Positions 45,275-61,374 of a stretch of DNA of 64,000 nt are shown here, piece by piece. The DNA is from Schlesneria sp. Its GTDB lineage: Bacteria > Planctomycetota > Planctomycetia > Planctomycetales > Planctomycetaceae. Both the position numbers and the translations under genes were made by a program. Below the pieces are notes generated by a model. The model worked only from the letters and a program-made list of their open reading frames with translations. It did no database searches and had not been told where the DNA came from. The DNA is taken from NCBI GenBank assembly GCA_028291515.1, contig JAQGHU010000084.1, positions 1 to 64,000 of the forward strand, written 5' to 3'. How positions within the stretch are numbered: position 1 is the stretch's first letter; each line of letters begins with the position of its first letter.

Positions 45275-45700
45275 ATGATCGCCGGACGCCCTTCAGCGCC
45301 GATTCGATTGATCACGCGCGGTAGCTTGCTATCGTTGTGCCTGTTGGCGTTTCTGGCTGGAGATGCCCGTCCGGCATGGGCCACTTGTGGTGATTATCTG
45401 CACGGCCACGGCCCGGCAGTCGCCAATCGCTTCGACAGTCCCGTCAGCCTGCCAATGGCGAATCAGGACCATCGTTCAGTTCCCGGACCAAAGTGTACGG
45501 GACCGCAATGTCAGCAAAATCGACAAACTCCTGGCGCGCCGACGAAATCGGTTCCGGTTCCCGTCTCCAGTGATGCCATCTTGATGGTGATCGCGGTACT
45601 GACGAATGCGGATGATTTCTCTTGCCACCGAATTGCCCACACCGAACACTCGATCACGGGTTTTATCGGCGGCATCTTCCGCCCGCCGCAAGCTGCGTAA
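45275..45700 (+). CDS. Small secreted 'ATCGDYL' protein, copy A
   Basis: The 141-residue product has a signal-like N-terminus (LLSLCLLAFLAGDARPAWA) followed by TCGDYLHGHG. It is a paralogue of the product at 50856: both share A-T-C-G-D-Y-L right after the signal peptide, a P-x-C-x-GP-x-C cysteine pair in the middle (PKCTGPQC / PVCLGPNC), proline-rich linkers, and a C-terminal IFRPP. I do not recognise the family. The cysteines suggest a disulfide- or metal-linked exported protein. The start is uncertain, with no strong ribosome-binding site. Confidence 0.65.
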   Translation: MIAGRPSAPIRLITRGSLLSLCLLAFLAGDARPAWATCGDYLHGHGPAVANRFDSPVSLPMANQDHRSVPGPKCTGPQCQQNRQTPGAPTKSVPVPVSSDAILMVIAVLTNADDFSCHRIAHTEHSITGFIGGIFRPPQAA

Positions 45701-45978
45701 CCGCATGCTGACGCGTCGGTTGCGATAAGCTGCGCCAAAATGTATCTGGTTTCTTTGGCGTGGCGAACCTCGGGATTATGACGGGAAGAGCGCGACTTGA
45801 TCGCGCTCGACCCACCCGCGGTCGTCAACTCGACTCCTCAGCAATTGTCGGTGACCCGGTCAGAAATGTGGTCTGCTGCGCCATCAATTTCTGCCATGCA
45901 CTTCCGCGGGCTGGTCTGTTGTCATTTTTCTTCGCGCGATTGCGCGGTTCATTGTCGGATGCTTTTGGAGGAATCACC

Positions 45979-46956
45979 ATGTCTGTAAGAACTCGTCGAA
46001 GTGCTTTTACGCTGATCGAACTGCTGGTCGTCATCGCCATTATCGCCGTTCTCATCGCTCTGTTGTTGCCAGCGGTCCAACAGGCCCGTGAGGCGGCTCG
46101 CCGGACGCAATGCAAGAACAACTTGAAGCAGTTGGGGCTGGCATTGCACAACTACCACGACACCTATCGCGGTCTGCCGATGGCGAAGAACACGGCGACG
46201 GCACCGGCTCAAACGAACTTCCCCGCTCAGGCTCGAATCCTGGCTCAGCTGGATCAGGTGCCCCTGTTTAATCAGATTAACTTCAACGGTAAGGCCACTG
46301 ATCCGACCAATGCGGTGCCGTATGCCTATACGGTTCCCGCTTTTCGCTGCCCGTCGGACTCAGACACTATGCAGGCGGTCGCTGGTGGTCGTAACAATTA
46401 CTACACGAATTATGGAACCATCATCGGAAATTCGTTGCCCGGAGCGACCGCGGCTCAAGCGAACTTCGGAATGCCGATGCCAGATGGCGTGATGTTCCAA
46501 GATAGTTTCGTCGGATTGGGCGACATCACCGATGGAACCAGCAATACGGTGATGATGTCTGAGCGTTGCCTGGGCGACGGAAGCAACGGGATCAGTACCC
46601 GCAGAAGTGACACGTTCCAGCCGGGGACTTATCCCGCCGACGCGAACGAAGCGTATACGATGTGCCGGGCCACGGACATCACGGATCTCTCGAAGCAAGG
46701 GAAGTCCAACGGCGGCGTCTCGTGGCTTGCTCCAGACCATACGACGACGTACTACCAGCACGTGCTGTCGCCGAACGATCTGTCGTGTATGTATCCACCC
46801 AGCCGGATTACGACGACGGCCAACAGCCGGCACACGGGTGGGGTCCAATCATTGATGTCTGATGGTGCCGTCCGATTTGTGTCGGAGAACATTGACAACA
46901 AGGTCTGGCGTGCTGTCGGATCACGCAATGGCGGCGAAGTGGTGAGCGAGTTCTAG
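45979..46956 (+). CDS. DUF1559 pseudopilin-like protein, copy A
   Basis: The 325-residue product has a type IV prepilin-like leader: short basic MSVRTRRS, then [14 protein letters not shown], followed by [26 protein letters not shown], the DUF1559 signature. The C-terminus carries the family block [13 protein letters not shown]. These proteins are presumably cut by a PilD-type peptidase and are massively expanded in Planctomycetota; their function is unknown. A near-perfect GGAGG lies before ATG 45979. A paralogue in the same neighbourhood order lies at 51487. Confidence 0.93.
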
Positions 46957-47088
46957 TCGGATCGCAGACGACGTCTGGACCAGAACTATGAGGTCTGAGG
47001 TTTCGAACCCGCTGTTCGAAGCCTCAGGCAGTCTATTCCCAGAGCCGCCTTCCGGTCGTTTCCTATTCCGAACAGGAATTTCTTTCAG

Positions 47089-47478
47089 ATGTGTCATACC
47101 TCGACAACTTCATGCTTGCGCTCCCTGCTGGCGATGGCTTTTCTAGTCGGCCTGATTGGTTGTGAACACAATGCGCGCAACCTCTCGGTCGATAAAGCCG
47201 GTGCCCGGCAATTCTGTACGACTTTCCTAACCGCCTGGAAAGACGGCAAGAAGGCCGCGGACCTGAAACCAAAGATCACTGGCAAGGACTCTGACTGGGA
47301 AGCCGGAAAGACTCTCGAATCCTTTGAGATTCTTCCCGACGAACGAACAGATGGAGCCAATCTGTTCTTGACCGTCCGCCGAACCATCAAGTCGCCAGAT
47401 GGAGCGTCACAACAGCAAGAAGTGGGATACGTCGTGGGAACATCTCCTGTCGTCACTGTCTTCCGAACAGACGAGTAA
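47089..47478 (+). CDS. Small lipoprotein, copy A
   Basis: The 129-residue product has a lipoprotein signal with lipobox LIGC (Cys about residue 25). It is a paralogue of the product at 52620: shared pattern AWK/SWK-x-G, L...D-x-DW-x-x-G-x-x-L, a DANL/GANL strand and the conserved end Y-V/L-VGTSPV-V/L-TVFR. I do not recognise the family. It follows the DUF1559 gene by 130 bases, the same arrangement as in copy B. Confidence 0.7.
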   Translation: MCHTSTTSCLRSLLAMAFLVGLIGCEHNARNLSVDKAGARQFCTTFLTAWKDGKKAADLKPKITGKDSDWEAGKTLESFEILPDERTDGANLFLTVRRTIKSPDGASQQQEVGYVVGTSPVVTVFRTDE

Positions 47479-47821: not shown

Positions 47822-47889
47822 GTTCAAGTTCCGGTCGTGGCGATATCCGCAATTCACTTTTCCTTCGTTCAATACTAGGAAGCCTTCCG

Positions 47890-49254
47890 ATGCGAACACT
47901 TTCTCGATGGAGCGGTGCCTTGTGCATCGTTGCTGTTTGTGCCAGTAGCTGGGGTGCAGAGATCAGCAGCGGTCTAACGAAGACTCGCCCCGAAATGAAG
48001 AAGCGAATCGAAGCACTTAAGGAGCGCGAAGCTCGGATCCCATTGCCGGCACTCACCGCTGAAGAGATCGCGTCCGGGAAACGATCAGTCAACAATGGTC
48101 GGCTGCGATCGATCTACCTTCCCGAATCGTGGCAAGCAAATCGATCTGCGACCGCGAACACGCAGGGCCGGACAGCCGGTCCGCAAAGCGTCGCCGCGAA
48201 TCTGAACCAGCAGCAGCAGGCCCCCGACTATCCGTTCAAAACGCGCCTGTTCTGGATCGTCTCGCGAACCAACGACTGCCAGTATTGCCTGGGACATCAA
48301 GAACTGAAGCTGCGTCGCGCCGGCATGACTGATGATCAGATCGCGTCGCTCGACTGCAAGTGGACTGCGTTTCCGGCCGACGAGCAAGCTGCGATCCGGT
48401 TGACCCGCAAAATCACGCTGACCCCGCACCTGGTGACCGACGATGATCTGGCAGCGCTGAAGAAGCACTACACGGATGCCCAAGTCGCCGACATCATTCA
48501 GACGGTGGCTGGCTATAATTCGACGAATCGCTGGACAGCCTCGACCGGCATTCCTCAAGACCGTTCTTTCGGCGGCGATGAGCCCAGCCAACTTGATACC
48601 CCGACCTCTGCCGAGTTCTCTGCCGTCGAAACCAGCGTCGCCCCGTACGACTACAAGCCGCGTGCTGCGTGGGAATCACGTGCAGAAGTCGACGCCGCCA
48701 TCGCGGCTTGCCGCGGTCGTTCCCCGTTGATCAAACTGCCGACGATGGAAGCCGCGCGACAAGCGCTGGCGGCCGATACGCCGGGAATCACGCCCCCTAT
48801 CTGGTGCCAGGCAATGGCATACGCTCCACAGACGGCTCTGCGCGGGTGGAAGCATCGTCAAGCCGTTGCTCGTGACGGCAAGCTGAATCCGAACCTGAAA
48901 GCCCTGATCGCCTGGGTCACCGCTCGCGAGAACCGCGCTTGGTACTCGGCCGCACATGCCAGAACCCGACTGAACGCCCTCGGTGTGACGGATGACACTC
49001 TGTATTCGATCGGCACGAACGAAGGTTCGTTCACACCGGTAGAACAGGCGACTTTCGCCTTCGCACGCAAACTGACATCAGCTCCGCATACGATTGTTGA
49101 TGACGACGTCGCCGGATTGCGAAAGTTATTCAGTGACAACGAAGTCGCTGAAATCATCTTTCTGGTCTGCGATGGCAATTCGTTTGACCGCGTCACGGAG
49201 ATGCTGCGATTGCCGCTCGAAGGAGGATCGACAACGATCGGTCAGGTTCAGTGA
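47890..49254 (+). CDS. Exported two-domain carboxymuconolactone decarboxylase (AhpD-like) protein
   Basis: The 454-residue product has a signal peptide (WSGALCIVAVCASSWGA). The N-terminal CMD domain keeps an AhpD/peroxidase-like motif C130-QY-C133-LG-H136, preceded by TRLFWIVSRTND. A second CMD domain near 330-440 has lost it: A350-WY-S353-AA-H356 replaces both cysteines. CMD proteins with CxxC reduce peroxides or act as alkylhydroperoxidase partners, normally in the cytoplasm, so export is unusual. Both domains end with the same core (FARKLTSAP, then DNEVAEIIFLV). AGGAAG precedes ATG 47890. A close paralogue follows at 49398. Confidence 0.85.
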   Translation: MRTLSRWSGALCIVAVCASSWGAEISSGLTKTRPEMKKRIEALKEREARIPLPALTAEEIASGKRSVNNGRLRSIYLPESWQANRSATANTQGRTAGPQSVAANLNQQQQAPDYPFKTRLFWIVSRTNDCQYCLGHQELKLRRAGMTDDQIASLDCKWTAFPADEQAAIRLTRKITLTPHLVTDDDLAALKKHYTDAQVADIIQTVAGYNSTNRWTASTGIPQDRSFGGDEPSQLDTPTSAEFSAVETSVAPYDYKPRAAWESRAEVDAAIAACRGRSPLIKLPTMEAARQALAADTPGITPPIWCQAMAYAPQTALRGWKHRQAVARDGKLNPNLKALIAWVTARENRAWYSAAHARTRLNALGVTDDTLYSIGTNEGSFTPVEQATFAFARKLTSAPHTIVDDDVAGLRKLFSDNEVAEIIFLVCDGNSFDRVTEMLRLPLEGGSTTIGQVQ

Positions 49255-49374: not shown

Positions 49375-49397
49375 CAAAGCACCTTTGGAAAAACATC

Positions 49398-50831
49398 ATG
49401 CTCAAACCCTGTTCTACAGCGTTCGCCATCGGCCTATCTCTGCTATCTGCCGGGGCGGCATTCGCGATCGACTCCGTCAACGCACCGCGCCCAATACCGT
49501 TGACACGTCCGGAAATGAAAGAGTTTCTGGAAGACATGAAGGGCCGAACGCCGCGGATTCCTCTTCCCGAACTGACGGATGCGGACAAAGAACGGTTGGG
49601 TGAGCGAGGCGGCAGCTACGAAGGTCGACTGCGATTTCACTACATGCAGCCGAACGAAGGACAAGGACCAGGCGGACAGGGACGCGGCGAAGGTCGCGGA
49701 ACGGGGAATGGCGGACGCGATAACGATCCCGATATGACACTCGACTATGCGTTCAAAGTCCAGTTGTTCTGGATCGTGTCGCGCACCAATAACTGTCAGT
49801 ACTGCCTGGGTCATCAGGAATCGAAGCTGCTGGGCGCGGGGATGACCGAAGATGAAATTGCGGCTTTGGATGGTGACTGGTCGCAGCACACGCCTGCTCA
49901 ACGGACTGCGTATGCCTTCGCTCGCAAGATCACCTATGAGCCTCAGAATCTCACGGACGCTGACATCGATGGCCTGCGAAAGCACTACACCGATAAACAG
50001 ATCCTGGAAATGATCCTGTCGGTCGCCGGCAACAACTCGATCAATCGCTGGAAAGAAGGAGCGGGCATTCCGCAATCGTCCGGTGGCGGAAACTTCGGTA
50101 ATCGTCGACCTGGTGGAGCCGAAGCAACCGCCGAACGTCCGGCACCCACTACGTCGCATAGCTACCTGACACCGACATCCGAGAAGTTTCAGAAGCTGAC
50201 GACCAAGGTGGCTCCGGCCATCGATCCCAAACCGGGCCAGACCACTTCGGCGACGGTTTCGAATCGACCACCGCTGGAAACGCAAGCGGACGTTGAAAAG
50301 GCTTTGGCGACAGCACGGCAGCGTGCTCCTCGCCTTCCTTTGATTGACGAAGACAAGGCTCGCGAAGTCGTTCCCGAAGGCTTCCCGGACGGATCACTGC
50401 CCCAATGGGTGCGGTTGCTGGCGAACTTCCCGACCAGTGCGAAAGGTCGCATCGGCAGTATTCGTTCGGCCGAAGAACGAAACGACTTGAAGCCGCTGCT
50501 GAAAGCACAACTCAGTTGGATCATCGCTCGTCAGGATCGTGCCTGGTACGCCGTCGCCCTAGCAAAACAGCGACTGAAGGATCTGGGCTGGTCGGATGAT
50601 CAGGTCTATTCGCTGGACGGAGACTGGGCGCAGTTCACGCCCGCCGAGAAATCCCTGTTCACACTCGCTCGCAAGCTGGCGGCGACTCCCGTCGTACTGA
50701 CCGACATCGATGTCACCGAGGCGGTCAAGCACGCGGGACCACGCGAAGTCGTTCAGACCATCAGCTACACGACCAACCGAGCTTCATTTGATCGGATCAC
50801 GGAATCAGCGGGCTTACGAGCCGAGAAGTAA
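49398..50831 (+). CDS. Exported two-domain carboxymuconolactone decarboxylase (AhpD-like) protein
   Basis: The 477-residue product has a signal peptide (FAIGLSLLSAGAAFA), a glycine-rich insertion about 85-115 (EGQGPGGQGRGEGRGTGNGG), then a CMD domain with an intact motif C133-QY-C136-LG-H139. The second CMD domain has lost the active site fully: A382-WY-A385-VA-L388. It is closely similar to the preceding gene over both domains (LFWIVSRTN, ALDGDW, FARKI). GGAA lies about 9 bases before ATG 49398. The ATCGDYL gene of copy B starts 24 bases after its stop. Confidence 0.85.
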   Translation: MLKPCSTAFAIGLSLLSAGAAFAIDSVNAPRPIPLTRPEMKEFLEDMKGRTPRIPLPELTDADKERLGERGGSYEGRLRFHYMQPNEGQGPGGQGRGEGRGTGNGGRDNDPDMTLDYAFKVQLFWIVSRTNNCQYCLGHQESKLLGAGMTEDEIAALDGDWSQHTPAQRTAYAFARKITYEPQNLTDADIDGLRKHYTDKQILEMILSVAGNNSINRWKEGAGIPQSSGGGNFGNRRPGGAEATAERPAPTTSHSYLTPTSEKFQKLTTKVAPAIDPKPGQTTSATVSNRPPLETQADVEKALATARQRAPRLPLIDEDKAREVVPEGFPDGSLPQWVRLLANFPTSAKGRIGSIRSAEERNDLKPLLKAQLSWIIARQDRAWYAVALAKQRLKDLGWSDDQVYSLDGDWAQFTPAEKSLFTLARKLAATPVVLTDIDVTEAVKHAGPREVVQTISYTTNRASFDRITESAGLRAEK

Positions 50832-50855: not shown

Positions 50856-51278
50856 ATGCAACGGCAAGTGCTATCAATGACGATGCGATCTCTCCAGCGC
50901 CACTGCTTGCAGTGGCTGCTGCTGATCGTTGCTGTCGTTGGACAACAGCGCATAGCCGAAGCGACCTGTGGTGATTATCTGCAGAAATACAGCGATCAGG
51001 CGGCCGGTCACAGCAGACATCTATCCAAGGCAGGTTCAATACCAGCCACTGGCGAGCCTGCCAACTATCCCGTCTGCCTGGGACCAAATTGCCGTCGACA
51101 CCAGCCGATTCCGGCGCAGCCTTCCAATGAGATTCTGCCCCCCACAGCCAGGGAAGCCGTTCTGGTTCCTGGTCTTTTGATCGTTCCTCTTTCATTGCTC
51201 GATCGCGATCGAGCAATCCAGATCACCGACATCAGCGGTCCCGCAGACCGCATCTTTCGCCCTCCGCGGATGATGTGA
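50856..51278 (+). CDS. Small secreted 'ATCGDYL' protein, copy B
   Basis: The 140-residue product has an N-terminal hydrophobic signal (LLLIVAVVGQQRIAEA) followed by TCGDYLQKYSD. It shares with the product at 45275 the ATCGDYL motif, the PVCLGPNC cysteine pair, a proline-rich linker and the C-terminal RIFRPP. ATG 50877 (MTMRSLQ) is an alternative start; neither has a good ribosome-binding site. It is followed, as in copy A, by a DUF1559 gene and a small lipoprotein gene. Confidence 0.65.
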   Translation: MQRQVLSMTMRSLQRHCLQWLLLIVAVVGQQRIAEATCGDYLQKYSDQAAGHSRHLSKAGSIPATGEPANYPVCLGPNCRRHQPIPAQPSNEILPPTAREAVLVPGLLIVPLSLLDRDRAIQITDISGPADRIFRPPRMM

Positions 51279-51486
51279 TGTTTGAAGCTCTCTAATTCGA
51301 GTCATCGGCAATATCAGGCCGCGGAACAGGTAAGGATCACGATCCTGCCGTCCCTCTGCGTCACTGCTGCAGTTCGATGATCAGAATCGATAGAAGTCTC
51401 ACGCATTAATTGGACGGCGCGCTCGTTGCGCATCGTCATTCCATCACATTTTCCGCCATCGCGCGGACATCTCGAGGGCCTGATCC

Positions 51487-52434
51487 ATGATTCATCATTC
51501 TCGTCGTCGTGCATTTACACTGATTGAACTTCTTGTCGTCATCGCCATTATTGCTGTGTTGATCGCGTTGCTGCTGCCTGCAGTTCAACAAGCTCGTGAA
51601 GCTGCCAGGCGCACGCAGTGCAAAAACAACCTCAAGCAATTGGGTTTGGGACTACATAACTATCACGGCACATTCAACTGCTTCCCATTTGGCCAGATTG
51701 ACTCGGCCAAGGGCTACTCGGCAATCAGTCAGATGCTCCCTTACTTCGATCAGGCTCCGCTCTACAACCTGATTAACTTCTCATTGTCGTATAGCGACGC
51801 CTCGAACAGTACGGCGCTCAATTCCGTACTGCCGGCCTTGCGCTGCCCGAGTGACGGGAACAACAATCTCTCCGGCCAGGGCGGTCCGACGAATTACATG
51901 GCCAATAAAGGCAGCGGTGTGATTTGGCAGGATGCCACCGGGCCGAATACGGGCATGCCGCCACAGACGGGAGTGATGTTCTACGCCAGTTCCGTCCGCA
52001 TCGGCGATATCACTGATGGGACGACGAACACCGCGGCATTCAGCGAGCGGTTGCTGGCAGACGGCAACAACGGAATCGTCAGTCCGATCGCCGACGTTTT
52101 CTTCAGCCCTGCGTCTCCGGCAACCCCTGACGACGCGATCGCCATGTGTGCTGCCGTCGATATCAACAATCTCTCCAATCAATTCCCACTGTACATGGGA
52201 GCACCCTGGATGCACGGGCAACACACCTATCTGCACATCAATGGTCCCAACTCGCGATCGTGCGGGTTCTTTACTGTGCTGCGAGCCAACATGCCTCCCA
52301 GCAGTCGGCACGTTGGTGGCGTCCACGTGCAACTGTGCGATGGATCGGTGCGGTTTGTCAGCGAGAATGTCGATCGCTTGGCCTGGCGAGCCGTCGGGAC
52401 CCGCGCCGGCGGCGAAGTGATTGGTGATTTCTAA
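51487..52434 (+). CDS. DUF1559 pseudopilin-like protein, copy B
   Basis: The 315-residue product has the prepilin-like leader [22 protein letters not shown] and the DUF1559 block [19 protein letters not shown]; the C-terminus has [13 protein letters not shown]. The N-terminal 60 residues are nearly identical to copy A and the rest diverges, which is usual for this family. GAGGG lies about 10 bases before the ATG. Confidence 0.93.
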
Positions 52435-52501
52435 AAGAGAGTGCGCGACGGTGATCTGTCCTGATTTAGTTTGGGTGCCACGGACTTGGAGTCCTCGACA
52501 T

Positions 52502-52529
52502 GGCCGTGTCTTCGATCGAGGACACGGCC
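52502..52529. repeat. Hairpin of the 'GACACGGCC' family
   Basis: GGCCGTGTC (52502-52510) and GACACGGCC (52521-52529) are perfect inverted arms, in the gap between the DUF1559 and lipoprotein genes of copy B. Related elements lie near 885-925, 34300 and 36863. Confidence 0.55.
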
Positions 52530-52619
52530 ACTCGGTAGGGCCATTTTGTCGTTACTAACCGCTATTGATCGCTGCATGACACGATCCCGTCTTATTCCAC
52601 TTCATTGAGAATTTCATAC

Positions 52620-53030
52620 ATGAACCCTCGTTCGCATCGATCGTTCCAATACGTGACCTGGCAGCAATTCATGCTGCTGTTGATTCTGTCCTCTGGTTTG
52701 ATCGGATGTGGCGGTAACGCGCATGCGGTCAAACCCGATGTGGCCCAGCAGACACTGCGCTCGGCCCTGGACTCATGGAAGAGCGGCCAGACCATTGAGA
52801 GCCTGAAAAAGGGCTCGCCTTCAATCGTTGTTCAGGATCTGGATTGGTCGGGCGGTGCCAAGTTACTGGACTATGAAGTTCTCGATGGCGGTAAGCCGGT
52901 CGATGCGAACCTGCAAGCCAAAGTGAAACTGAAATTACGCGATGCGAAAGATGTCGAATCGGAAAAGACGGTCAGCTACCTGGTCGGAACGAGCCCCGTC
53001 TTGACCGTCTTTCGTGACATGTTTCATTGA
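52620..53030 (+). CDS. Small lipoprotein, copy B
   Basis: The 136-residue product has a lipoprotein signal with lipobox LIGC (FMLLLILSSGLIGC). It shares with the product at 47089 SWKSG, the DLDWSGG block, DANL and the end SYLVGTSPVLTVFR. The ATG at 52620 is preferred over the upstream one because the basic region and signal core start here. The EF-hand/deiodinase-like gene follows after 51 bases. Confidence 0.7.
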   Translation: MNPRSHRSFQYVTWQQFMLLLILSSGLIGCGGNAHAVKPDVAQQTLRSALDSWKSGQTIESLKKGSPSIVVQDLDWSGGAKLLDYEVLDGGKPVDANLQAKVKLKLRDAKDVESEKTVSYLVGTSPVLTVFRDMFH

Positions 53031-53081: not shown

Positions 53082-54335
53082 ATGAGATTGACCTGCCTGA
53101 AACTAACTGCTCCGGTCCTATCGGTCACTGCGATGCTGCTCTCTCAAGCGAGTGCGGACGACGCGACTGCCACGGGCGCAACTACTGCCGCGAAAGAAGA
53201 CCCGAAGTTCACCGTGAATCCGGACTTGACCAAGGTTCCCAACGAAGAAATCGAAGCCGCTTACGAAGGGAAGACCCAACCGGAAGCGATTCGAATGTAC
53301 CTGGCGATCAGCAAGGGAGCCATGATGGGTGGCAACGACGGCTGGTTCGGGCCGGCGGCCTCGCGATACAGTTGGGCCTGGCTGGCCGAGAAACACGGCG
53401 TCACCCCCAAGGGTGAAATTGAAGCCGCCAAGTTTCAGGGCGATGCGGCGTGGTTTAAGCGTCTGGATCGAAACAAAGATGGCAAGATCGTCGCCGAAGA
53501 CCTGGACTGGTCTGATCGCAATTTCTGGGTCCAGAATGCCTCTCTGGTGAATCGCCTGTTCCGCAAAGCAGATCCCAATGGTGATGGCGCGCTAACGCGT
53601 GACGAGTGGCTCGCATTTTACGACGCCACGGCTCAAGGTCAGAAATCGCTCAGTGCCGAAGACCTGCGAGAAGCCTGGCTGACGGGCATGGCTTCGAATT
53701 TTCTGCCGGGTGATGCTCCTACGAAAGAGATGCTTCTTAATGGACTGTTCACCGGCGAAGTCGGATCGCTACAGGAAGGTCCCGCACTGAATGCGCCAGC
53801 TCCAGACTTCACGCTGAAGACACAAGACGGCGAACGGACGATCCAGCTGTCCGAAGTCATCGGCAAAAAGCCTGTCGTGTTGATGTTCGGCAACTTTACC
53901 TGTGGGCCGTTCCGTTCGATCTCCCCAGGCGTCGAAACGGTTCATGAGCGTTTCAAAGATGACGCTGTCTTCATCGGAGTGTATGTTCGCGAAGCACACC
54001 CGACCGATGGCTGGAAGATGGAATCCAATACGAAGGTCGGCGTCGCGGTGGCTCAGCCCAAGACCTACGACGAGCGTAAAGCGATTGCTCAGCAATGCAA
54101 TCAACTCTTAAAGCTGAAGATGCCGCTGCTGGTCGATGACATCAATGATTCGACCGGAAACGCCTACAGCGGCATGCCCGCTCGGTTGTATGTGATCGAT
54201 AACGAAGGTCGTGTGGCTTACAAGGGAGGTCGCGGCCCCTTCGGCTTTAAGCCGGGTGAGATGGAGCAGGCGTTGGTCATGACTCTGCTCGAAGCCGCCA
54301 CGCCAAAAGCTCCTTCACAAACGTCGACGAAATGA
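53082..54335 (+). CDS. Exported EF-hand protein with iodothyronine-deiodinase-like domain
   Basis: The 417-residue product has a signal peptide (LSVTAMLLSQASA). Two EF-hand loops are visible, at 129-140 (DRNKDGKIVAED) and 164-175 (DPNGDGALTRDE, with canonical ligands). From about residue 235 a thioredoxin-fold domain begins with APDFTLKTQDGERTIQLSE and continues with VVLMFGNFTCGPFRS and FIGVYVREAHPTDGW. The EAHPTDGW block and the FTCGPF site are marks of the deiodinase family (PF00837). The active position is Cys274 where animal enzymes have selenocysteine. Substrate in bacteria is unknown; it may act as a thiol oxidoreductase. It takes the place of the STAS gene of copy A. Confidence 0.82.
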   Translation: MRLTCLKLTAPVLSVTAMLLSQASADDATATGATTAAKEDPKFTVNPDLTKVPNEEIEAAYEGKTQPEAIRMYLAISKGAMMGGNDGWFGPAASRYSWAWLAEKHGVTPKGEIEAAKFQGDAAWFKRLDRNKDGKIVAEDLDWSDRNFWVQNASLVNRLFRKADPNGDGALTRDEWLAFYDATAQGQKSLSAEDLREAWLTGMASNFLPGDAPTKEMLLNGLFTGEVGSLQEGPALNAPAPDFTLKTQDGERTIQLSEVIGKKPVVLMFGNFTCGPFRSISPGVETVHERFKDDAVFIGVYVREAHPTDGWKMESNTKVGVAVAQPKTYDERKAIAQQCNQLLKLKMPLLVDDINDSTGNAYSGMPARLYVIDNEGRVAYKGGRGPFGFKPGEMEQALVMTLLEAATPKAPSQTSTK

Positions 54336-54407: not shown

Positions 54408-57083
54408 ATGCCAGAACGCCTCCTTACTTCTTCACCGTGGATCACTGCATTGACCGGACTAGTGATTGGTTCCATGGCCGCTGTTTCAATCGCCAACGAT
54501 GGCCCTCGTTTCCCGGTGCTATCAAATAGCGACGCATGGCGGCAATTACCTGCCGCCGTGAAAGGAAGCGACCAGCCGTTGCCGACGTGGGCTCGCATGC
54601 TGGCGGCCGAGTTGCCACGAACTACCGCCGCCTTCTTGGAGCTCGATCTGGCTCAGCGGAACAAAAGTCCCGTGGCACCAGAACTGCGCGCTGGTATGCG
54701 TTGGGTCGCTGCGCACGCGAACCATTGCGCGTATTCCGAAGCAACCGCCGCCACTGATGCCGTTCGCGCTGGAGTTAGCTCGGCCAGAGTCGATGGACTG
54801 AAGTCCGTGGACTTTCAAGGCTGGTCCAATGACGAACGGGCGGCGTTGTCGTTCGCTCGCAAGATGAGCGTCGATTCCGATTCGGTGATCGATGAGGAAT
54901 TTGCACAACTCGTCAAACTGTTTGGCGACAAGCAGGCGGCGTCTATGGTGCTGATGATGGCCTACGCCAACTTCCAGGATCGGTTTCTGCTGGCTATTGG
55001 CGCTCCCTTGGAGGCGGAGAGCTCACTTCCACCCGCTGATGTCGACTTCAGTCCCGAGTCGTTCGTTATCAAGACAACTCCGCCACCGCCTTTAAAGAAA
55101 GTCCCCCTGCCGAAGCCAACCGGTCAGGATCAAACTCCAGACGATCCCGAATGGGCCGCGACCAGCTACGATGTGCTGCAGCAACGACTGGAGTCTCAAC
55201 GAACCAAGCCAACACGATTGCCGGTCCTTCCCTGGGATCAGGTCGCTCGCAACCTTCCCGAAGGTCTGATTTCACGACCCAGCGACATCGTCTGGTACCG
55301 CATCGTCTTCGGGTACGCTCCCGAACTGGCGGTCCCCTTCGAAGTGTTCATGCGAACAGCCGGGGCCGAGACCAGTTCGAAATGGGATCGCATCTTCGGA
55401 CAAAGCCTATTCTGGGTGACGACTCGCGCCGTGAAGTGTCCATACTGCATGGGTCACTGCGAAATGAATTGGGAAGTCGCGGGTTTGACGACTCCCGAGA
55501 TTGCCGAGCGTAGCCGCTTACTCGCCGGTGACGATTGGTCGAGCTTCACTCCAGCCGAACAACACGCCTTCGCATTCGCCCGAAAGCTCACGAGTACTCC
55601 CTGGTCGGTGTCCGGCGCAGATGTCACCCAGCTCAAGGACGATTTCGGCACCGATCGAGCGATGATCGTGATGCTGAACGCCAGCCGCTATCACTACATG
55701 ACCCGCATTTCGAATGGGTTCCAACTGACGCTGGAACGCGACAACGTATTTTACGATTACTACAACGTGAAGTCGCCCGCAGTCGCCGCAGCGTCTGCCG
55801 AAGGAACGTCTGTCATCCCCTTGCTGAGTGTCGAAGAATGCTGGAAGCGGATGCCCGCGACTGTTTCAGGTGGTGGGCAGACCCTACCGAACTGGGCGCG
55901 AAGCGTGGCGTCCTCTCTTCCACGCACAGCGGCTGCCATGCTGCAACTGGATCACGCCCAGCGGACCAAGAGCCCGCTTGATCCCGTCCTGCGTGCGAAG
56001 ATGCGCTGGGTCATCGGCAAGGCCAATCGATGCCTCTACTCGCAAGCGTACGCTGTCGCCGATCTGAAGCGAGCTGGCTTGGACGCGGACGCGGTTCGCA
56101 AGTTTACGACGGATGATTCTTCGTGGATAGAAGCCGATCGAGAGCCGCTTGAGTTTGCGAGATTGTTAACCGTCGCCGCCCCGACGATTCCCGACGAGAT
56201 GTTTGAGCGACTGAAAGCTCGGTTCGGGGACAAGCAAGTCGCGGCCATGGTGCTGTTGGCAGCCTACGGCAACTTCCAGGATCGTCTCGTCCTGGGGCTG
56301 AAGTTGCCAATTGAAGTCGGTGGTCCATTGCCACCACTGGCCGTTCAATTTACCGATGATGCGTTTCAGGTCGCGCCGATCTTCCCGCCTCAGGCTGCAC
56401 CAGTAGCCCTCAAATCGTCAGGCCAGGATGTCGTCGATGATGATCCCGCCTGGTCTGCCATCTCGTATGACCAGTTGCAAACACGACTGGAGCAGCAGCG
56501 CAGTCGCAATCCGCGGCTGCCGATCCCTACGTGGGACGAAGTGAAACAGAAGCTTCCCCCTGCGATGGCCGCGCGTCCGACTCGAATCATCTGGAATCTC
56601 GTCTGTTCGGGCTACGTTCCCGAGTTGGCAGTTCCATGGAGCATCGCCACACGAACCATGTGGTCTGAAACAAAGCCGGACCGCGTCCTCGAGGAAAGTC
56701 TGTTCTGGATTCAAACGCGCGCGATCGAATGCAATTACTGCATGGGTCACTGCGAAATGCTGCTGGAAGTCGCCGGATTGGACCAGAAAGCCATTGCCGA
56801 GCGAACAAGACTGCTGGCAGGCTCCGATTGGTCTGCGTTTCCATCCGAAGAGCAGCGTGCCTTTGCATACGCTCGCAAACTCAGTCAAATGCCTTGGGAT
56901 CTGGCAGCAGACGACTACAAAACGCTGGAAGCCGACTTCGGTCCCGACAAGGCGATGGCCACATTCTGGTGGCTCTGTCGAGGTCTCTACATGACCCGCG
57001 TCTCAGATGGGTTCCAGCTTCCGTTGGAGCGAGAAAACGTGTTCGCCAGTCCACCGATTAAGACATCGGGTACAGACAAGTAG
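54408..57083 (+). CDS. Exported four-domain carboxymuconolactone decarboxylase (AhpD-like) protein
   Basis: The 891-residue product has a signal peptide (ITALTGLVIGSMAAVSIA) and then two copies of a unit of about 433 residues, each made of a degenerate and an intact CMD domain. Domain 1 has C107-AY-S110, domain 2 C344-PY-C347-MG-H350-C351, domain 3 C542-LY-S545, and domain 4 C775-NY-C778-MG-H781-C782. Spacing between equivalent cysteines (431 and 435) shows the internal duplication. The intact sites carry an extra Cys after the His. The order degenerate-then-intact is opposite to the two-domain proteins of copy A. GGAAAGG precedes the ATG. The CRTAC1-type gene follows after 22 bases. Confidence 0.85.
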   Translation: MPERLLTSSPWITALTGLVIGSMAAVSIANDGPRFPVLSNSDAWRQLPAAVKGSDQPLPTWARMLAAELPRTTAAFLELDLAQRNKSPVAPELRAGMRWVAAHANHCAYSEATAATDAVRAGVSSARVDGLKSVDFQGWSNDERAALSFARKMSVDSDSVIDEEFAQLVKLFGDKQAASMVLMMAYANFQDRFLLAIGAPLEAESSLPPADVDFSPESFVIKTTPPPPLKKVPLPKPTGQDQTPDDPEWAATSYDVLQQRLESQRTKPTRLPVLPWDQVARNLPEGLISRPSDIVWYRIVFGYAPELAVPFEVFMRTAGAETSSKWDRIFGQSLFWVTTRAVKCPYCMGHCEMNWEVAGLTTPEIAERSRLLAGDDWSSFTPAEQHAFAFARKLTSTPWSVSGADVTQLKDDFGTDRAMIVMLNASRYHYMTRISNGFQLTLERDNVFYDYYNVKSPAVAAASAEGTSVIPLLSVEECWKRMPATVSGGGQTLPNWARSVASSLPRTAAAMLQLDHAQRTKSPLDPVLRAKMRWVIGKANRCLYSQAYAVADLKRAGLDADAVRKFTTDDSSWIEADREPLEFARLLTVAAPTIPDEMFERLKARFGDKQVAAMVLLAAYGNFQDRLVLGLKLPIEVGGPLPPLAVQFTDDAFQVAPIFPPQAAPVALKSSGQDVVDDDPAWSAISYDQLQTRLEQQRSRNPRLPIPTWDEVKQKLPPAMAARPTRIIWNLVCSGYVPELAVPWSIATRTMWSETKPDRVLEESLFWIQTRAIECNYCMGHCEMLLEVAGLDQKAIAERTRLLAGSDWSAFPSEEQRAFAYARKLSQMPWDLAADDYKTLEADFGPDKAMATFWWLCRGLYMTRVSDGFQLPLERENVFASPPIKTSGTDK

Positions 57084-57105
57084 CAATTCATCCAAGGATC
57101 GCGCT

Positions 57106-59394
57106 GTGTCACAGTCGAAACTCTCTGCTCTTAAATTACTACTAACTCTCGGATCTCTCGCCGTCGCGGTGGGGACAGGAATCACATTCACCAAGTCTCG
57201 ACCGCCGCGCCACGTGGAGAAAAAGCCCGTCGTCATCCAGTATGAACCTCAACAGGATTTTGACGCCACCGGATATGAGATCATCCACAACACTGTTCCG
57301 CGATGGGGGAACAACGCGACCCTTGCGGAAGTCAAAGCCATTTGGGACGGAGCTGCTCAACGTGGGATCGATGCCGCAGATGAAAAACTTGAGAAACTGG
57401 ACGGATCAGACCCGCTGGTGAATTCACTGATCTATCAAAAGGGCGCTCTCTTAAACTTCGAAGGACGCGCCAAAGAAGCATATCAGACTTTCGAGGGGCT
57501 TCGATCTCGTATCGAAGCAGACAGCAGCGCGGCGCAGGAGAGCCTCTACAGCATCATCTACTTGCAGGGCGTCACAGCGCTGCGTCGCGGTGAAAACGAA
57601 AACTGCATCATGTGCCGTGGAGAAAGTTCTTGCATTCTCCCGATCTCACGGGCGGCCAGGCATATCAACCCGGCGGGCTCGCGCCTGGCGATCCAACATT
57701 TCACAGAGTACCTCGATAAATTCCCCGACGATGCTGGCGCGAGGTGGCTGCTGAACCTGGCACACATGACTCTGGGAGAGCACCCCGATCTTGTTGATCC
57801 CCGTCACCTGATTTCATTGGATCATTTTACAAAGTCCGAATTCGACATCGGCAAGTTTCGAGATCTGGGCCATCTGGTCGGAGTGAATCAGTTCACTCAG
57901 GCTGGGGGAGCCATCATGGAGGATTTCGACAACGATGGCCTGCTGGACATTGTCATCACCACGTTTGATCCAACGACACAAATGTCGTTTCTGAAGAACT
58001 CGGGTGACGGCACATTTGAAGATCGCACCCCTGGTGCCGGGATGGATGGCCAGTATGGAGGCCTGAATTGTGTGCAAACCGACTTCAACAACGACGGATA
58101 CGCCGACATCTTCGTGATGCGCGGGGCGTGGCTGATGAGTCCCGTGCGACCCACGTTATTGCGCAACAACCAGGATGGAACTTTCACGGATGTCACAGCG
58201 GAAGCAGGATTGGCACGCCCCGTCAACTCGATCGCGGCGTCGTGGGCTGACTATGACAACGATGGATGGTTGGACTTGTTCATCTGTTGTGAGAAGCAAC
58301 CGAGCGAGCTGTATCGCAATCTCGGCAACGGAACCTTCGAGCCAGTCCTCGAGAAGTCTGGAATGCGGATGCAACGCGTCATCTGCAAAGGCGCCGCCTG
58401 GATCGACTACGACAACGACAGCTTCCCGGATCTATTTGTGAATTACCTCACCGGGCCGGGTGCACAATTGTTTCACAACAATCGAGATGGAACATTTCAG
58501 GATGCGTCGATCGCAATGAATATCGACGGACCCACGACTGGTTTTTCATGCTGGGCCTGGGACTATGACAATGATGGCTGGCAGGACATTTTCGCCACCT
58601 GTTACGAGAGAACGATGGGGGACGTGTTGCATGGTCTAACGGGTCACCCACATGAACGAAAGTCGAATCGACTCTATCGCAATATGGAAGGCAAGCGATT
58701 CAAAAATGTAACGCAGGAAGCAGGCTTGGACGTAGTCTTTGTCACGATGGGAAGCAACTTTGCCGATTTTGACAACGACGGTTTTCTCGATATGTACCTG
58801 GGGACTGGGGAACCTAGCTATGCGGTCCTGATTCCCAACCGAATGCTGAAGAATGTCGCCGGTCGCCGATTTGCCGACATTACCGCAACATCGGGCACGG
58901 GGTCGCTCCAAAAAGGACATGGCGTTGCTTGCGGAGATTGGGATCGCGACGGGGATGTCGATCTCTACCTGGAAATGGGTGGTGCGGTTCCTGGCGACAA
59001 ATACCACAACATCCTGTTCCAGAACCCAGGGCAGAAAAATCACTCTCTCACGGTCAAACTGATTGGCCAGAAATCAAACCGGGCCGCGATTGGCGCGAGG
59101 ATCAAGATCGTCACCGCAGGAGACGAGCCGCAAACTTTCTATCGACATGTTTCGACAGGAAGCAGCTTTGGTGCGAACCCACTGCAGCAAACAATTGGCG
59201 TTGGTACCGCGGACCGGATTGCGACTTTGGAGATTCATTGGCCCACCAGTGGGACCGATCAAGTCTTTCACGATATTGCCGTGAACCAGGCCATCTCGAT
59301 TACCGAGTTTGCCGAAGACTATGAACGCCTTGACTGGACTTCGATCAAGGTTGATGAGTCGAAGGCCGACAAGACCATGTTAGGGGGCAAATAG
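57106..59394 (+). CDS. CRTAC1/ASPIC-UnbV family protein with FG-GAP repeats
   Basis: The 762-residue product has an N-terminal membrane or signal segment (LLLTLGSLAVAVGTGITF), a TPR-like part (about 90-240) that contains CIMCRGESSC, then several FG-GAP/VCBS repeats (ADIFVMRGAWL, DYDNDGWLDLF, DYDNDGWQDIFATC, DFDNDGFLDMYLG), and an ASPIC/UnbV C-terminal domain (IGARIKIVTAGDEP, STGSSFGANPLQQTIGVG). Such proteins are exported and probably calcium-binding beta-propellers. GTG 57106 is chosen because AAGGA lies 6-10 bases upstream and it clears the previous gene; an in-frame earlier start would overlap it. It is probably the last gene of cluster copy B. Confidence 0.87.
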   Translation: MSQSKLSALKLLLTLGSLAVAVGTGITFTKSRPPRHVEKKPVVIQYEPQQDFDATGYEIIHNTVPRWGNNATLAEVKAIWDGAAQRGIDAADEKLEKLDGSDPLVNSLIYQKGALLNFEGRAKEAYQTFEGLRSRIEADSSAAQESLYSIIYLQGVTALRRGENENCIMCRGESSCILPISRAARHINPAGSRLAIQHFTEYLDKFPDDAGARWLLNLAHMTLGEHPDLVDPRHLISLDHFTKSEFDIGKFRDLGHLVGVNQFTQAGGAIMEDFDNDGLLDIVITTFDPTTQMSFLKNSGDGTFEDRTPGAGMDGQYGGLNCVQTDFNNDGYADIFVMRGAWLMSPVRPTLLRNNQDGTFTDVTAEAGLARPVNSIAASWADYDNDGWLDLFICCEKQPSELYRNLGNGTFEPVLEKSGMRMQRVICKGAAWIDYDNDSFPDLFVNYLTGPGAQLFHNNRDGTFQDASIAMNIDGPTTGFSCWAWDYDNDGWQDIFATCYERTMGDVLHGLTGHPHERKSNRLYRNMEGKRFKNVTQEAGLDVVFVTMGSNFADFDNDGFLDMYLGTGEPSYAVLIPNRMLKNVAGRRFADITATSGTGSLQKGHGVACGDWDRDGDVDLYLEMGGAVPGDKYHNILFQNPGQKNHSLTVKLIGQKSNRAAIGARIKIVTAGDEPQTFYRHVSTGSSFGANPLQQTIGVGTADRIATLEIHWPTSGTDQVFHDIAVNQAISITEFAEDYERLDWTSIKVDESKADKTMLGGK

Positions 59395-59425: not shown

Positions 59426-59884
59426 TCAACTCCTCGCCAGAGCGGGCTTCCGCTCGGGTTTGCGATCGTCGCAGAGCGGAGGGCTGCCGGTTGGCTCGGC
59501 CAGGATCTCGGCAAGCGTCGTGTTGCGGAACGCCGCTTCTACAGAGGCCATCGCGTCGTCCATGCGGCGATGCAATGGACACAGATTCTTGCCGTGCGAC
59601 TTCAGCCCCAACGGACACGTGGCGATTCTCTGAATCGGTTCGACCGCGTTGACCACTTCCAGGATCGTCAATTCCGCAGGTGGCCGCAGGAGCGTGACGC
59701 CACCCCCAACGCCGCGCTGAGTCCGCACGATCTCGCAGCGACTTAGGTTCTGCAGCACCTTGGACAGATACGGCTTCGGCACTTGTGTCCTTTCCGCGAT
59801 CTGCTCGGTCGTGCAGGCCTCCGGTGATTTGTCGGCCAGAAAGACGATCGCTCGCAGTGCGTATTCGACAGTTTGAGAAAACAT
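59426..59884 (-). CDS. Rrf2-family transcriptional regulator
   Basis: The 152-residue product has the Rrf2 winged helix (MFSQTVEYALRAIVFLA, TTEQIAERTQVPKPYLSKVLQNL, RTQRGVGGGVTLLRPPAELTILEVVNAVE). Cysteine spacing resembles the iron-sulfur type: C90 and C102 are 12 apart, with H105 three further, as in IscR (C92, C104, H107), but the middle Cys is replaced by Ser96. It may bind a cluster differently or be a redox switch. GAGGG precedes ATG 59884. It is divergent from the c-type cytochrome gene at 60046, and a dyad between them is a likely operator. Confidence 0.88.
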   Translation of the reverse strand: MFSQTVEYALRAIVFLADKSPEACTTEQIAERTQVPKPYLSKVLQNLSRCEIVRTQRGVGGGVTLLRPPAELTILEVVNAVEPIQRIATCPLGLKSHGKNLCPLHRRMDDAMASVEAAFRNTTLAEILAEPTGSPPLCDDRKPERKPALARS

Positions 59885-59943
59885 GCCGCCCTCGACTTGA
59901 TTCAACCGGAGATTGACGTCGCATATCGACGCCAGTACAGTTT

Positions 59944-59967: not shown

Positions 59968-60045
59968 TGCGGTCTGCGTGCGAGGACGTCAACTCACAAG
60001 AGGCGCGCCGTAAGGCGCAAGACCTGCTTTCTTGAGAAGTCGGTA

Positions 60046-61374
60046 ATGTTAACGAGCCCGTTTCGATCAACGTATTTCCTCGGAATAGTGATCGCTATTC
60101 TACTGAGCGCCGGTTCGAACTCTGTCGAGTTGCATGCTCAGGATTTCGAGCGTGAGCCGATCAACTATGCCACCGCGACGCCGGACAATCCAATTTCGCG
60201 GCTGCGGACTCGACTAGACGAGGGAACGTCGCAACTGTCGTTTGCAGAGGGGCCAGGCTATCTGAAGTCTCTGCTTGCCGAACTGAAGATCCCTGTCTCG
60301 TCGCAGACGCTGGTCTTCTCGAAAACAAGCCTGCAACGGCACCGCATCACCCCAAGGACGCCGCGAGCCATCTACTTCAACGACGACACCTATGTCGGCT
60401 TCTGTCAGAACGGCGACGTGTTGGAATTGTCGGTGGCCGACCCGCAACTCGGAGCCGTCTTCTACACGCTCGACCAGGACGCAACGCTCAAACCACACCT
60501 GGCCCGACAAGTCGACAATTGCCTGCTGTGTCACGGTACCGGGCATACGCGTGGCGTTCCCGGGCATTTCATTCGGTCGGTCTATACCGACAGCGTTGGC
60601 TTCCCCGTACTGGCGATGGGAACGCATCGCATCGATCACAGTAGCCCGATCTCGCATCGCTGGGGCGGTTGGTACGTGACGGGGACACATGGTGAGCAGG
60701 AACACCGGGGCAACCTGATCGTCAGCGGCAAGCAGGAACGCGAACCCGTCGACAATGCCGCCGGACAGAATGTCACCGACCTGACCTCTCGATTCAAGAC
60801 CTCGGCCTATCTCTCTCCTCATAGCGACTTGATCGCGCTCATGGTCCTGGAACATCAAACCGAAGCTCACAACCTGCTGACGCGCGCCAGCTTCCAGGCT
60901 CGCGAAGCCCTCTACTCTGAAGCGAAGCTCAACAAGGAACTCGGTGAGCAAGAGGGGCATCGCTGGGACAGCACCAACACCCGAATCAAAAGTTCGTGCG
61001 AGGCGTTGGTCAAATACATGCTGTTCTGCGACGAAGCCCCGCTGACCAGTCCGCTTCAAGGAACATCCACGTTCGCCGCCGACTTCGTTGAACTCGGTCC
61101 GCGCGATCCCGCCAACCGTTCCCTGCGCGACTTTGACTTACAGCGTCGATTATTCAAATATCCGTGCAGCTATCTGATCTATTCGCGCTCGTTCGACGAA
61201 CTTCCAGCCGAAGCCAAATCGCTGGCCTATCGACGCCTGTGGGAAGTCCTGAGCGGGGCAGATCAGACGAAGACGTTCGCCCATCTCACGGAAGCAGATC
61301 GCCAGGCGATTCGTGAGATTCTCATTGCCACCAAGCCTGGCTTACCCGACTACTGGCAGAATGAGCAGCGATGA
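60046..61374 (+). CDS. Exported c-type cytochrome-like protein
   Basis: The 442-residue product has a signal segment (YFLGIVIAILLSAGSNSVELHAQ) and one haem-binding motif C159-LL-C162-H163 followed by GTGHTRGVPGHF. The middle block SVYTDSVGFPVLAMGTHRI and HRWGGWYVTGTHG looks conserved but I do not know its family. The rest is helical and soluble, with no second haem motif. ATG 60046 is chosen as the start just before the signal segment. It is divergent from Rrf2 and downstream of a candidate operator, so it is probably redox- or NO-regulated. Confidence 0.75.
   Translation: MLTSPFRSTYFLGIVIAILLSAGSNSVELHAQDFEREPINYATATPDNPISRLRTRLDEGTSQLSFAEGPGYLKSLLAELKIPVSSQTLVFSKTSLQRHRITPRTPRAIYFNDDTYVGFCQNGDVLELSVADPQLGAVFYTLDQDATLKPHLARQVDNCLLCHGTGHTRGVPGHFIRSVYTDSVGFPVLAMGTHRIDHSSPISHRWGGWYVTGTHGEQEHRGNLIVSGKQEREPVDNAAGQNVTDLTSRFKTSAYLSPHSDLIALMVLEHQTEAHNLLTRASFQAREALYSEAKLNKELGEQEGHRWDSTNTRIKSSCEALVKYMLFCDEAPLTSPLQGTSTFAADFVELGPRDPANRSLRDFDLQRRLFKYPCSYLIYSRSFDELPAEAKSLAYRRLWEVLSGADQTKTFAHLTEADRQAIREILIATKPGLPDYWQNEQR

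Follow-up and report, generated by a model that had tools for sequence, protein, structure and literature searches.

An EF-hand deiodinase-like protein of Schlesneria and its CMD partners as a putative exported two-part thiol reductase

What does a domain of the iodothyronine deiodinase type do in a planctomycete, within a protein that also carries EF-hands and whose gene lies among genes for CMD proteins? The window analyzed here comprises 64,000 nucleotides of Schlesneria sp. (assembly GCA_028291515.1, contig JAQGHU010000084.1, positions 1 to 64,000, forward strand), from a genome of 8.59 Mb in 119 contigs. An earlier note, made from the letters alone, had recognized a deiodinase-family domain with Cys274 at the selenocysteine position, preceded by two calcium-type loops and a signal peptide, and had proposed it as the reductant or dehalogenase of a system formed with the neighboring CMD proteins.

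The deiodinase-like protein and its Cys/Sec site

The open frame at 53082–54335 on the forward strand encodes a deiodinase-like protein of 417 amino acids, with the following features:

53082..54335, + strand: deiodinase-like protein, 417 amino acids, NF038285 family (Pfam, NCBIfam, phmmer, AlphaFold2 model)
53082..53156, + strand: signal-peptide-like N terminus, residues 1–25, ASA/DD (by eye; pLDDT <50 for residues 1–34)
53397..53432, + strand: degenerate EF loop, residues 106–117 (strict pattern unmet in the window, met in 30/106 relatives)
53466..53501, + strand: EF loop DRNKDGKIVAED, residues 129–140 (Pfam EF-hand; strict pattern in 93/107 relatives)
53571..53606, + strand: EF loop DPNGDGALTRDE, residues 164–175 (Pfam EF-hand; strict pattern in 70/108 relatives)
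53793..54275, + strand: deiodinase-type thioredoxin-fold domain, residues 238–398 (PF00837; Dio2/Dio3 fold matches)
53901..53903, + strand: codon of Cys274, the Cys/Sec site (TGA in the same column of relatives)
53991..54014, + strand: EAHPTDGW block, residues 304–311 (E304, A305 and H306 in 134/135 relatives, one gap)
54096..54098, + strand: Cys339, candidate distal (resolving) Cys (Cys within 337–342 in 124/135 relatives)

In the Pfam scan, PF00837 (T4_deiodinase) matches residues 238–398 with 93.4 bits (cut-off 27), and AhpC-TSA (40.5 bits) and Redoxin (27.3 bits) pass their cut-offs as well. The closest solved relatives by phmmer against the PDB are mouse Dio3 (E 4.5e-20) and Dio2 (E 5.3e-19). 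The AlphaFold2 model, built from 36 sequences (pLDDT 88.5, pTM 0.86), is nearest in fold to Dio2 (Z 17.4, rmsd 2.5 over 167), with Dio3 at Z 16.9 (rmsd 5.3 over 185) and ResA-type proteins and the 1-Cys peroxiredoxin AhpE ranking thereafter at Z ~14. The assignment to the deiodinase family therefore stands by profile as well as by sequence and fold. AhpC/TSA and TlpA were considered as better families and rejected, since AhpC-TSA scores below PF00837 and both CxxC and PxxxTxxC are absent; nor is the EAHPTDGW block poorly conserved. NCBIfam model NF038285, ‘deiodinase family protein’ (deiodinase_rel), is matched with 535 bits (cut-off 250) over residues 60–404, EF-hands included.

The N terminus, MRLTCLKLTAPVLSVTAMLLSQASA-DD, reads by eye as a signal peptide, and on this ground the protein appears to be exported. 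Four EF-hand models pass the Pfam cut-off. The loops at residues 129–140 and 164–175 both fit the strict EF pattern, so that the two calcium-type loops of the earlier note are retained; at the fourth EF place the pattern is found in 0 of 109 sequences.

Within the window’s GTDB family, NF038285 is matched at E ≤ 1e-20 in 60 of 170 genomes, and its cut-off is passed in 52 of the 170. A phylum sample of 294 genomes contains 203 with a match at E ≤ 0.001 and four passing the cut-off. As six of the 14 control genomes also match at E ≤ 0.001, other thioredoxin-fold proteins are among such weak matches; one in-frame TGA is carried by most of the listed stronger matches below the cut-off. The nearest named relative record is an uncultured Schlesneria MAG (93% identity over residues 1–417, in a search that may omit the window’s own genome), and a second deiodinase-like copy occurs on another contig of the same genome (G000:C45:488-1522, locus L094).

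The motif FTCGPF is present and assigns Cys274 to codon 53901–53903. We could compare this site across 140 distinct segments out of 171, the window included. The column holds Cys in 86, an in-frame TGA in 50 and is unreadable in four, i.e., Cys or TGA occurs in 136 of 136 readable segments. The equation of Cys274 with the selenocysteine position is thereby confirmed, as 50 of the 140 segments read TGA there. Around this site, the window and most Cys forms read FGNFTCGPFR; the Sec forms of the EF-hand family mostly read FGSFTUGPFR or FGSFTUGPYR, and most distant forms FGSYTUPPFR. All 12 same-family genomes in which a TGA form is listed have a selA match (TIGR00474) above cut-off, versus 16 of 42 others searched, and so do 25 of 26 distant genomes picked for their TGA form; the same profile search gave no selA match in the window’s genome. 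The TGA-bearing relatives thus likely insert selenocysteine. Folding of the 54 bases after the site shows a weak shift only (mean z −0.38 for deiodinase-like Sec forms, n = 42; +0.16 for Cys forms, n = 84), as it does after the CMD site (Sec −0.41, n = 19; Cys −0.15, n = 90), and no clear SECIS signal emerged from these 54 bases downstream of the TGAs. A tree of 137 rows, among them the window protein and two Dio sequences of mouse, requires three Cys/Sec changes at the site; the animal enzymes join it where long branches meet, which makes their placement unusable. Two divergent forms were also seen. Locus L139 carries, at 3374, a tandem Sec paralogue with the site FGTYSUTNFR after an FGSYTUPPFR copy, and a Cys branch with FGCFSCGNYR occurs in L110 (9992–10939, in tandem with a Sec copy) and L118.

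Mouse Dio3 and Dio2 numbering was mapped onto the window protein and residues were counted in 135 aligned relatives. Six Dio2 proton-relay residues and a Phe proposed to open the thyronine cleft are described in passages of PMC11592359, and further Dio residue roles in passages of PMC9141512. Four of the six relay residues are kept, with T273, Y301, E304 and H306 corresponding to Dio3 T169, Y197, E200 and H202. Conservation is high for Thr273 (n = 133), Tyr301 (n = 133), Glu304 (n = 134), His306 (n = 134), Arg332 (n = 134) and Trp311 (n = 122). The relay Ser (Dio3 S167, Dio2 S127) is Asn271 in the window; all 50 Sec forms in the alignment have Ser at this position, and 82 of the 85 Cys forms have Asn. 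The second relay His (Dio3 H219, Dio2 H182) is replaced by Pro326 (Pro in 128 of 135, His in four), and the thyronine-cleft Phe (Dio3 F258) by Pro366 (Pro in 134 of 135, one gap), which is probably the cis-Pro of thioredoxin folds. Because two thyronine-site/proton-relay residues are not conserved, the window protein is unlikely to be an iodothyronine deiodinase.

The proximal Cys of Dio1 and Dio3 corresponds to Phe272, mostly Phe or Tyr in relatives; since Dio2 has Ala there, this Cys is not general to deiodinases. The Cys found at 337–342 lies near the deiodinase distal Cys yet in another column, and Cys339 may serve as a resolving residue. CxxC occurs at the deiodinase-type site in none of the 136 segments, and neither does PxxxTxxC, the peroxidatic signature of peroxiredoxins. 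A table entry of a 2026 review (PMC13188914) lists a deiodinase-like protein with the motif UxxC; a CxxC active site is rejected for the proteins compared here by the same count.

CMD proteins beside and within the deiodinase-like protein

Three CMD proteins flank the deiodinase-like gene, in each of which a domain with an intact CxYCxxH motif is paired with a degenerate domain. They are listed here with the small protein just upstream of the gene:

47869..49254, + strand: CMD protein, an intact domain (CQYCLGH) plus a degenerate domain, N terminus signal-like by eye (above cut-off for PF02627 and TIGR01926)
49392..50831, + strand: CMD protein, an intact domain (CQYCLGH) plus a degenerate domain, N terminus signal-like by eye
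52605..53030, + strand: small lipoprotein-like protein (no Pfam/NCBIfam match)
54408..57083, + strand: the partner, a four-domain CMD protein, signal-like N terminus (by eye; PF02627 32.9 bits)

The partner at 54408–57083 has the domain order degenerate–intact–degenerate–intact and thus holds two such pairs; its intact motifs, CPYCMGH (from 55437) and CNYCMGH (from 56730), represent a CxxC plus His within a CMD domain. The protein at 49392–50831 scores 23.3 bits for PF02627 (cut-off 23) and 46.5 bits for TIGR01926, below the cut-off of 81.8. The whole genome contains six TIGR01926 domain matches, four of them in the window’s CMD proteins, and four PF02627 matches, two of them in the window (one just below cut-off); across 12 genomes searched, TIGR01926 matches number 2–6 per genome. 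Between the deiodinase-like gene and its partner, which share one reading frame, lie 72 bases. Since these include two in-frame TGAs, the split into two genes could stem from a stop codon. At the second copy, L094, no CMD domain is found downstream, and the upstream side is cut.

Relatives of the proteins at 52605–53030 or 47089–47478 are present in many deiodinase-like loci. Both belong to a module repeated at 45275–47478 and 50856–53030, consisting of a small TCGDYL protein, a DUF1559/pilin-like protein (named by eye) and a small lipoprotein-like protein, parts of which have relatives recurring beside the deiodinase-like gene in many loci. Directly downstream of the partner, an FG-GAP and ASPIC/UnbV protein is encoded at 57007–59394, and a weaker FG-GAP relative lies beside L094. 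An Rrf2-family regulator (59426–59905, − strand) closes the cluster, which might point to redox or iron-sulfur control. The protein at 60028–61374 contains CLLCHGTGH (a CxxCH motif, by eye) and has no Pfam/NCBIfam match at E ≤ 0.01.

The link to CMD proteins extends well beyond the window. A CMD domain is fused, adjacent or within 6 kb in 70 of 115 EF-family loci (window included, deiodinase match >150 bits), absent in 27 and obscured by a contig end in 18, where the 115 exclude 20 distant loci and L115–L117, count the broken gene of L182 twice (adjacent and fused), and draw in part on the best 80 of 577 matches, which lean to window-like proteins and overlap assemblies of the other locus sets (identical ends alone were removed), and where the profile used to score context derived from these very CMD proteins. 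A single-query phmmer search in an earlier, smaller locus set found CMD in 32 of 60 loci. The 70 comprise CMD in one frame (n = 23), adjacent downstream (n = 23), adjacent upstream only (n = 14) and within 6 kb (n = 10). An intact domain within 6 kb is present in 63 of the 115, the other seven having weak or degenerate domains only. The fused loci have no stop in the linker between the deiodinase and CMD parts; they include L074 (G372), from a genome in a single contig, and L168, from the named isolate Zavarzinella formosa DSM 19928. The 23 include two imperfect cases, as L182 represents the fragment behind a break in its deiodinase part and L084 reaches its contig end before an intact CMD domain. 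Between the beginning of the deiodinase part and the CMD motif, five fusions (L163, L171, L172, L190 and L203) contain two TGAs in all, each at one of the two active sites, and three (L162, L211 and L216) combine Cys in the deiodinase part with TGA in the CMD part. The meaningful link with the neighboring CMD proteins that the earlier note had suspected is thus well founded, with CMD at 70 of 115 loci and fused in 23.

Whether the residues of the two partners are matched is a different question. Considering the nearest intact CMD domain on the same strand within 5 kb, the deiodinase/CMD combinations are Sec/Sec in 14 cases, Sec/Cys in none, Cys/Sec in six and Cys/Cys in 41, while such a domain is absent in 76 of the 140 segments, distant Sec loci included. 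Fisher’s test gives 1.7e-9 for matching; we set it aside as unfair because the tree holds three site changes and two independent pairs. The Cys form of L068 has a Sec domain as its nearest intact CMD, so partner residues are not matched one to one. Nor is a CMD neighbor obligatory, as none is present near 27 of the 97 loci with readable context, or in the flanking sequence, short in some cases, retrieved for the 20 distant Sec loci. Stand-alone CMD proteins with an in-frame TGA in NNC(L/Q)Y-U-LGHQE were seen beside Sec deiodinase-like genes in L109 (5710–6264), L111, L112 and L113. In the passages of open-licence PMC literature that our search returned, neither the CMD partnership nor the double-TGA fusions were found.

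A CMD profile of 18 intact domains, searched against solved chains, ranks the debrominase Bmp8 first (E 9.5e-11) and the AhpD chain 6k40 next (E 1.7e-9). Bmp8 has the same C-x-Y-C-x-x-H spacing and 6k40 one residue more before the His; CxYCxxH is present in all 109 distinct CMD domains above 120 bits, Sec being counted as Cys. A single-sequence match to Bmp8 is weak (E 4.5e-4) and lies over a degenerate domain, and for the protein at 47869–49254 other CMD chains score better, Bmp8 being absent among the matches listed. The 2019 Bmp8 paper reportedly describes a dehalogenation strategy in common with thyroid deiodinase. The model of a fused relative, L063 (pLDDT 81.5, pTM 0.67), matches Dio2 at Z 14.2; its first CMD domain, which is degenerate, is matched at Z ~15–18 by Bmp8 and by AhpD-like chains of one domain, with Bmp8 (Z 16.8) and AhpD (Z 17.6) tied there.

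The same model gave an observation of its own. Sestrins carry two AhpD-like domains in one chain, and the double CMD part of L063 (protein positions 474–873) matches human Sestrin2 at Z 25.3 (rmsd 3.6 over 292, 12% identity), compared with ~17 for single AhpD chains, the Sestrin2 match also being longer. By sequence, no sestrin is among the 12 CMD-profile matches at E ≤ 0.1. This modeled likeness may bear on the origin of sestrins.

Electron flow, substrate and rival readings

We consider it probable, with appreciable room for doubt, that the locus encodes an exported two-part thiol reductase (in relatives probably a selenol reductase), in which the CMD dithiol recharges the deiodinase-type Cys or Sec. 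The domains, the Cys/TGA equivalence, the gene adjacency and the fusions are observed in the sequences; export, the direction of electron flow, the role of calcium and the class of substrate are what we infer from them. Cys274, placed as the deiodinase Sec, would attack an electrophilic atom of a small extracytoplasmic substrate, either a peroxide oxygen or a halogen, and become oxidized. The CxYCxxH dithiol of the CMD protein encoded alongside would then recharge it, perhaps by way of Cys339, and the EF-hand domain would probably stabilize or position the protein with calcium. The fusions, the adjacency and the scarcity of other CMD genes in these genomes suggest that the two domains act together. 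AhpD-type proteins are described in passages of PMC10460364 as reductants of thiol peroxidases; as AhpD dithiols recharge such enzymes and no adjacent thiol is present at the site, the CMD dithiol is a plausible source of electrons for Cys274. The earlier proposal of the deiodinase-like protein as ‘reductant of the system’ may well be reversed. With CxxC at 0 of 136 deiodinase-type sites and Phe272 in place of the proximal Cys, the CMD dithiol is the more likely reductant. The CMD proteins may in addition have an activity of their own.

As to the substrate, a halogen is indicated by the deiodinase loop, by the lack of the peroxiredoxin signature and by the match to Bmp8, an oxidant by the missing thyronine-site residues and the likeness to AhpE and AhpD. 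The two corresponding readings are substrate-specific forms of the two-part reductase, and their probabilities overlap. An extracytoplasmic peroxidase, i.e., a 1-Cys-peroxiredoxin-like enzyme with the AhpD-like partner as its reductant, is possible, though we would not bet on it: ResA and AhpE are among the next folds after Dio (Z ~14), AhpC-TSA and Redoxin exceed their Pfam cut-offs and AhpD reduces peroxidases (PMC10460364), but PxxxTxxC is lacking in 136 of 136 segments and the deiodinase match is far stronger. The absence of that signature counts instead for a reductive dehalogenase, whose fused or paired proteins would strip halogen from aromatics outside the cell with a thiol or selenol in both halves. 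The retention of four of the six relay residues and the EAHP block agrees with this, as do CxYCxxH in 109 of 109 CMD domains above 120 bits and the ranking of debrominase Bmp8, with its identical motif spacing, as the first solved chain of the CMD profile (E 9.5e-11). However, Pro stands in place of Dio His219 in 128 of 135 relatives and in place of Dio Phe258 in 134 of 135, Cys for Sec cuts Dio activity ~1000-fold according to a passage of PMC11592359, no dehalogenase family was matched among the nine window proteins scanned (Pfam, NCBIfam), and Bmp8 is tied with AhpD by fold (Z 16.8 and 17.6) over a degenerate domain, which leaves dehalogenation a tentative and somewhat doubtful reading. Its boldest form, in which the deiodinase-type and debrominase-type CMD domains constitute one exported organohalide-dehalogenating enzyme, in some planctomycetes as a single chain with two selenocysteines, we regard as unlikely; if true, it would place the selenium-dependent halogen abstraction of thyroid deiodinases in environmental bacteria, with the reductant built in.

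Two further readings give the redox site another role or none. Thiol-disulfide exchange of the TlpA/ResA type on exported proteins or cytochrome c would fit the ResA folds directly after Dio, a weak match to a ResA model (19.1 bits) and the CxxCH-motif protein (by eye) nearby, but that score lies far below the cut-off of 170 and CxxC is found at the site in 0 of 136 segments, so that we think it improbable. The EF-hands and the signal-like N terminus would suit a structural surface protein or a calcium sensor whose redox site is vestigial; this is very hard to reconcile with Cys or TGA in 136 of 136 readable segments and is the least credible reading by far. Returning to the two-part reductase, its conserved, partly fused and sometimes double-TGA partner offers a candidate electron donor for the EF-hand branch of deiodinase-like proteins. 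A dehalogenating pair would place deiodinase chemistry in environmental bacteria, and a peroxide-reducing one would represent an exported peroxidase type of its own. The window’s Cys form, from a genome without a selA match, should suit expression in E. coli.

Relation to known systems

A bacterial deiodinase homologue is in itself already known. Deiodinase-like proteins of bacteria, in both Sec and Cys form, entered the literature in 2005 (PMC1088965); in the passages concerned of PMC1088965, PMC2398784 and PMC13188914 they are listed without an assigned function. The Sargasso/GOS deiodinase-like selenoproteins (PMC1088965, PMC2398784) are likewise bacterial Sec and Cys homologues of deiodinases; in the sections of these papers that treat them, deiodinase-like and AhpD/CMD-like selenoproteins form separate families, with no link between the two and no EF-hands mentioned. 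The combination of EF-hands and a deiodinase domain is already catalogued as NF038285, whose family name carries no function. The window protein matches this whole model, EF-hands too, but the model has 347 positions and stops at the end of the deiodinase domain, and the CMD part of the fused relatives lies outside it.

With Dio1–3, the window protein has in common the fold, the Cys/Sec site, the conserved T, Y, E, H and W and the EAHP block. Unlike them, it carries EF-hands, a signal-like N terminus, Phe272, Pro326 (for His219) and Pro366 (for Phe258). Its partner belongs with Bmp8 and AhpD to the CMD family, sharing CxxC and His with both and the motif spacing with Bmp8, and differs from them in its signal-like N terminus and its paired intact and degenerate domains. 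A likeness to human Sestrin2, with its two AhpD-like domains, is seen in the modeled fold of the relative L063 and does not imply a common function.
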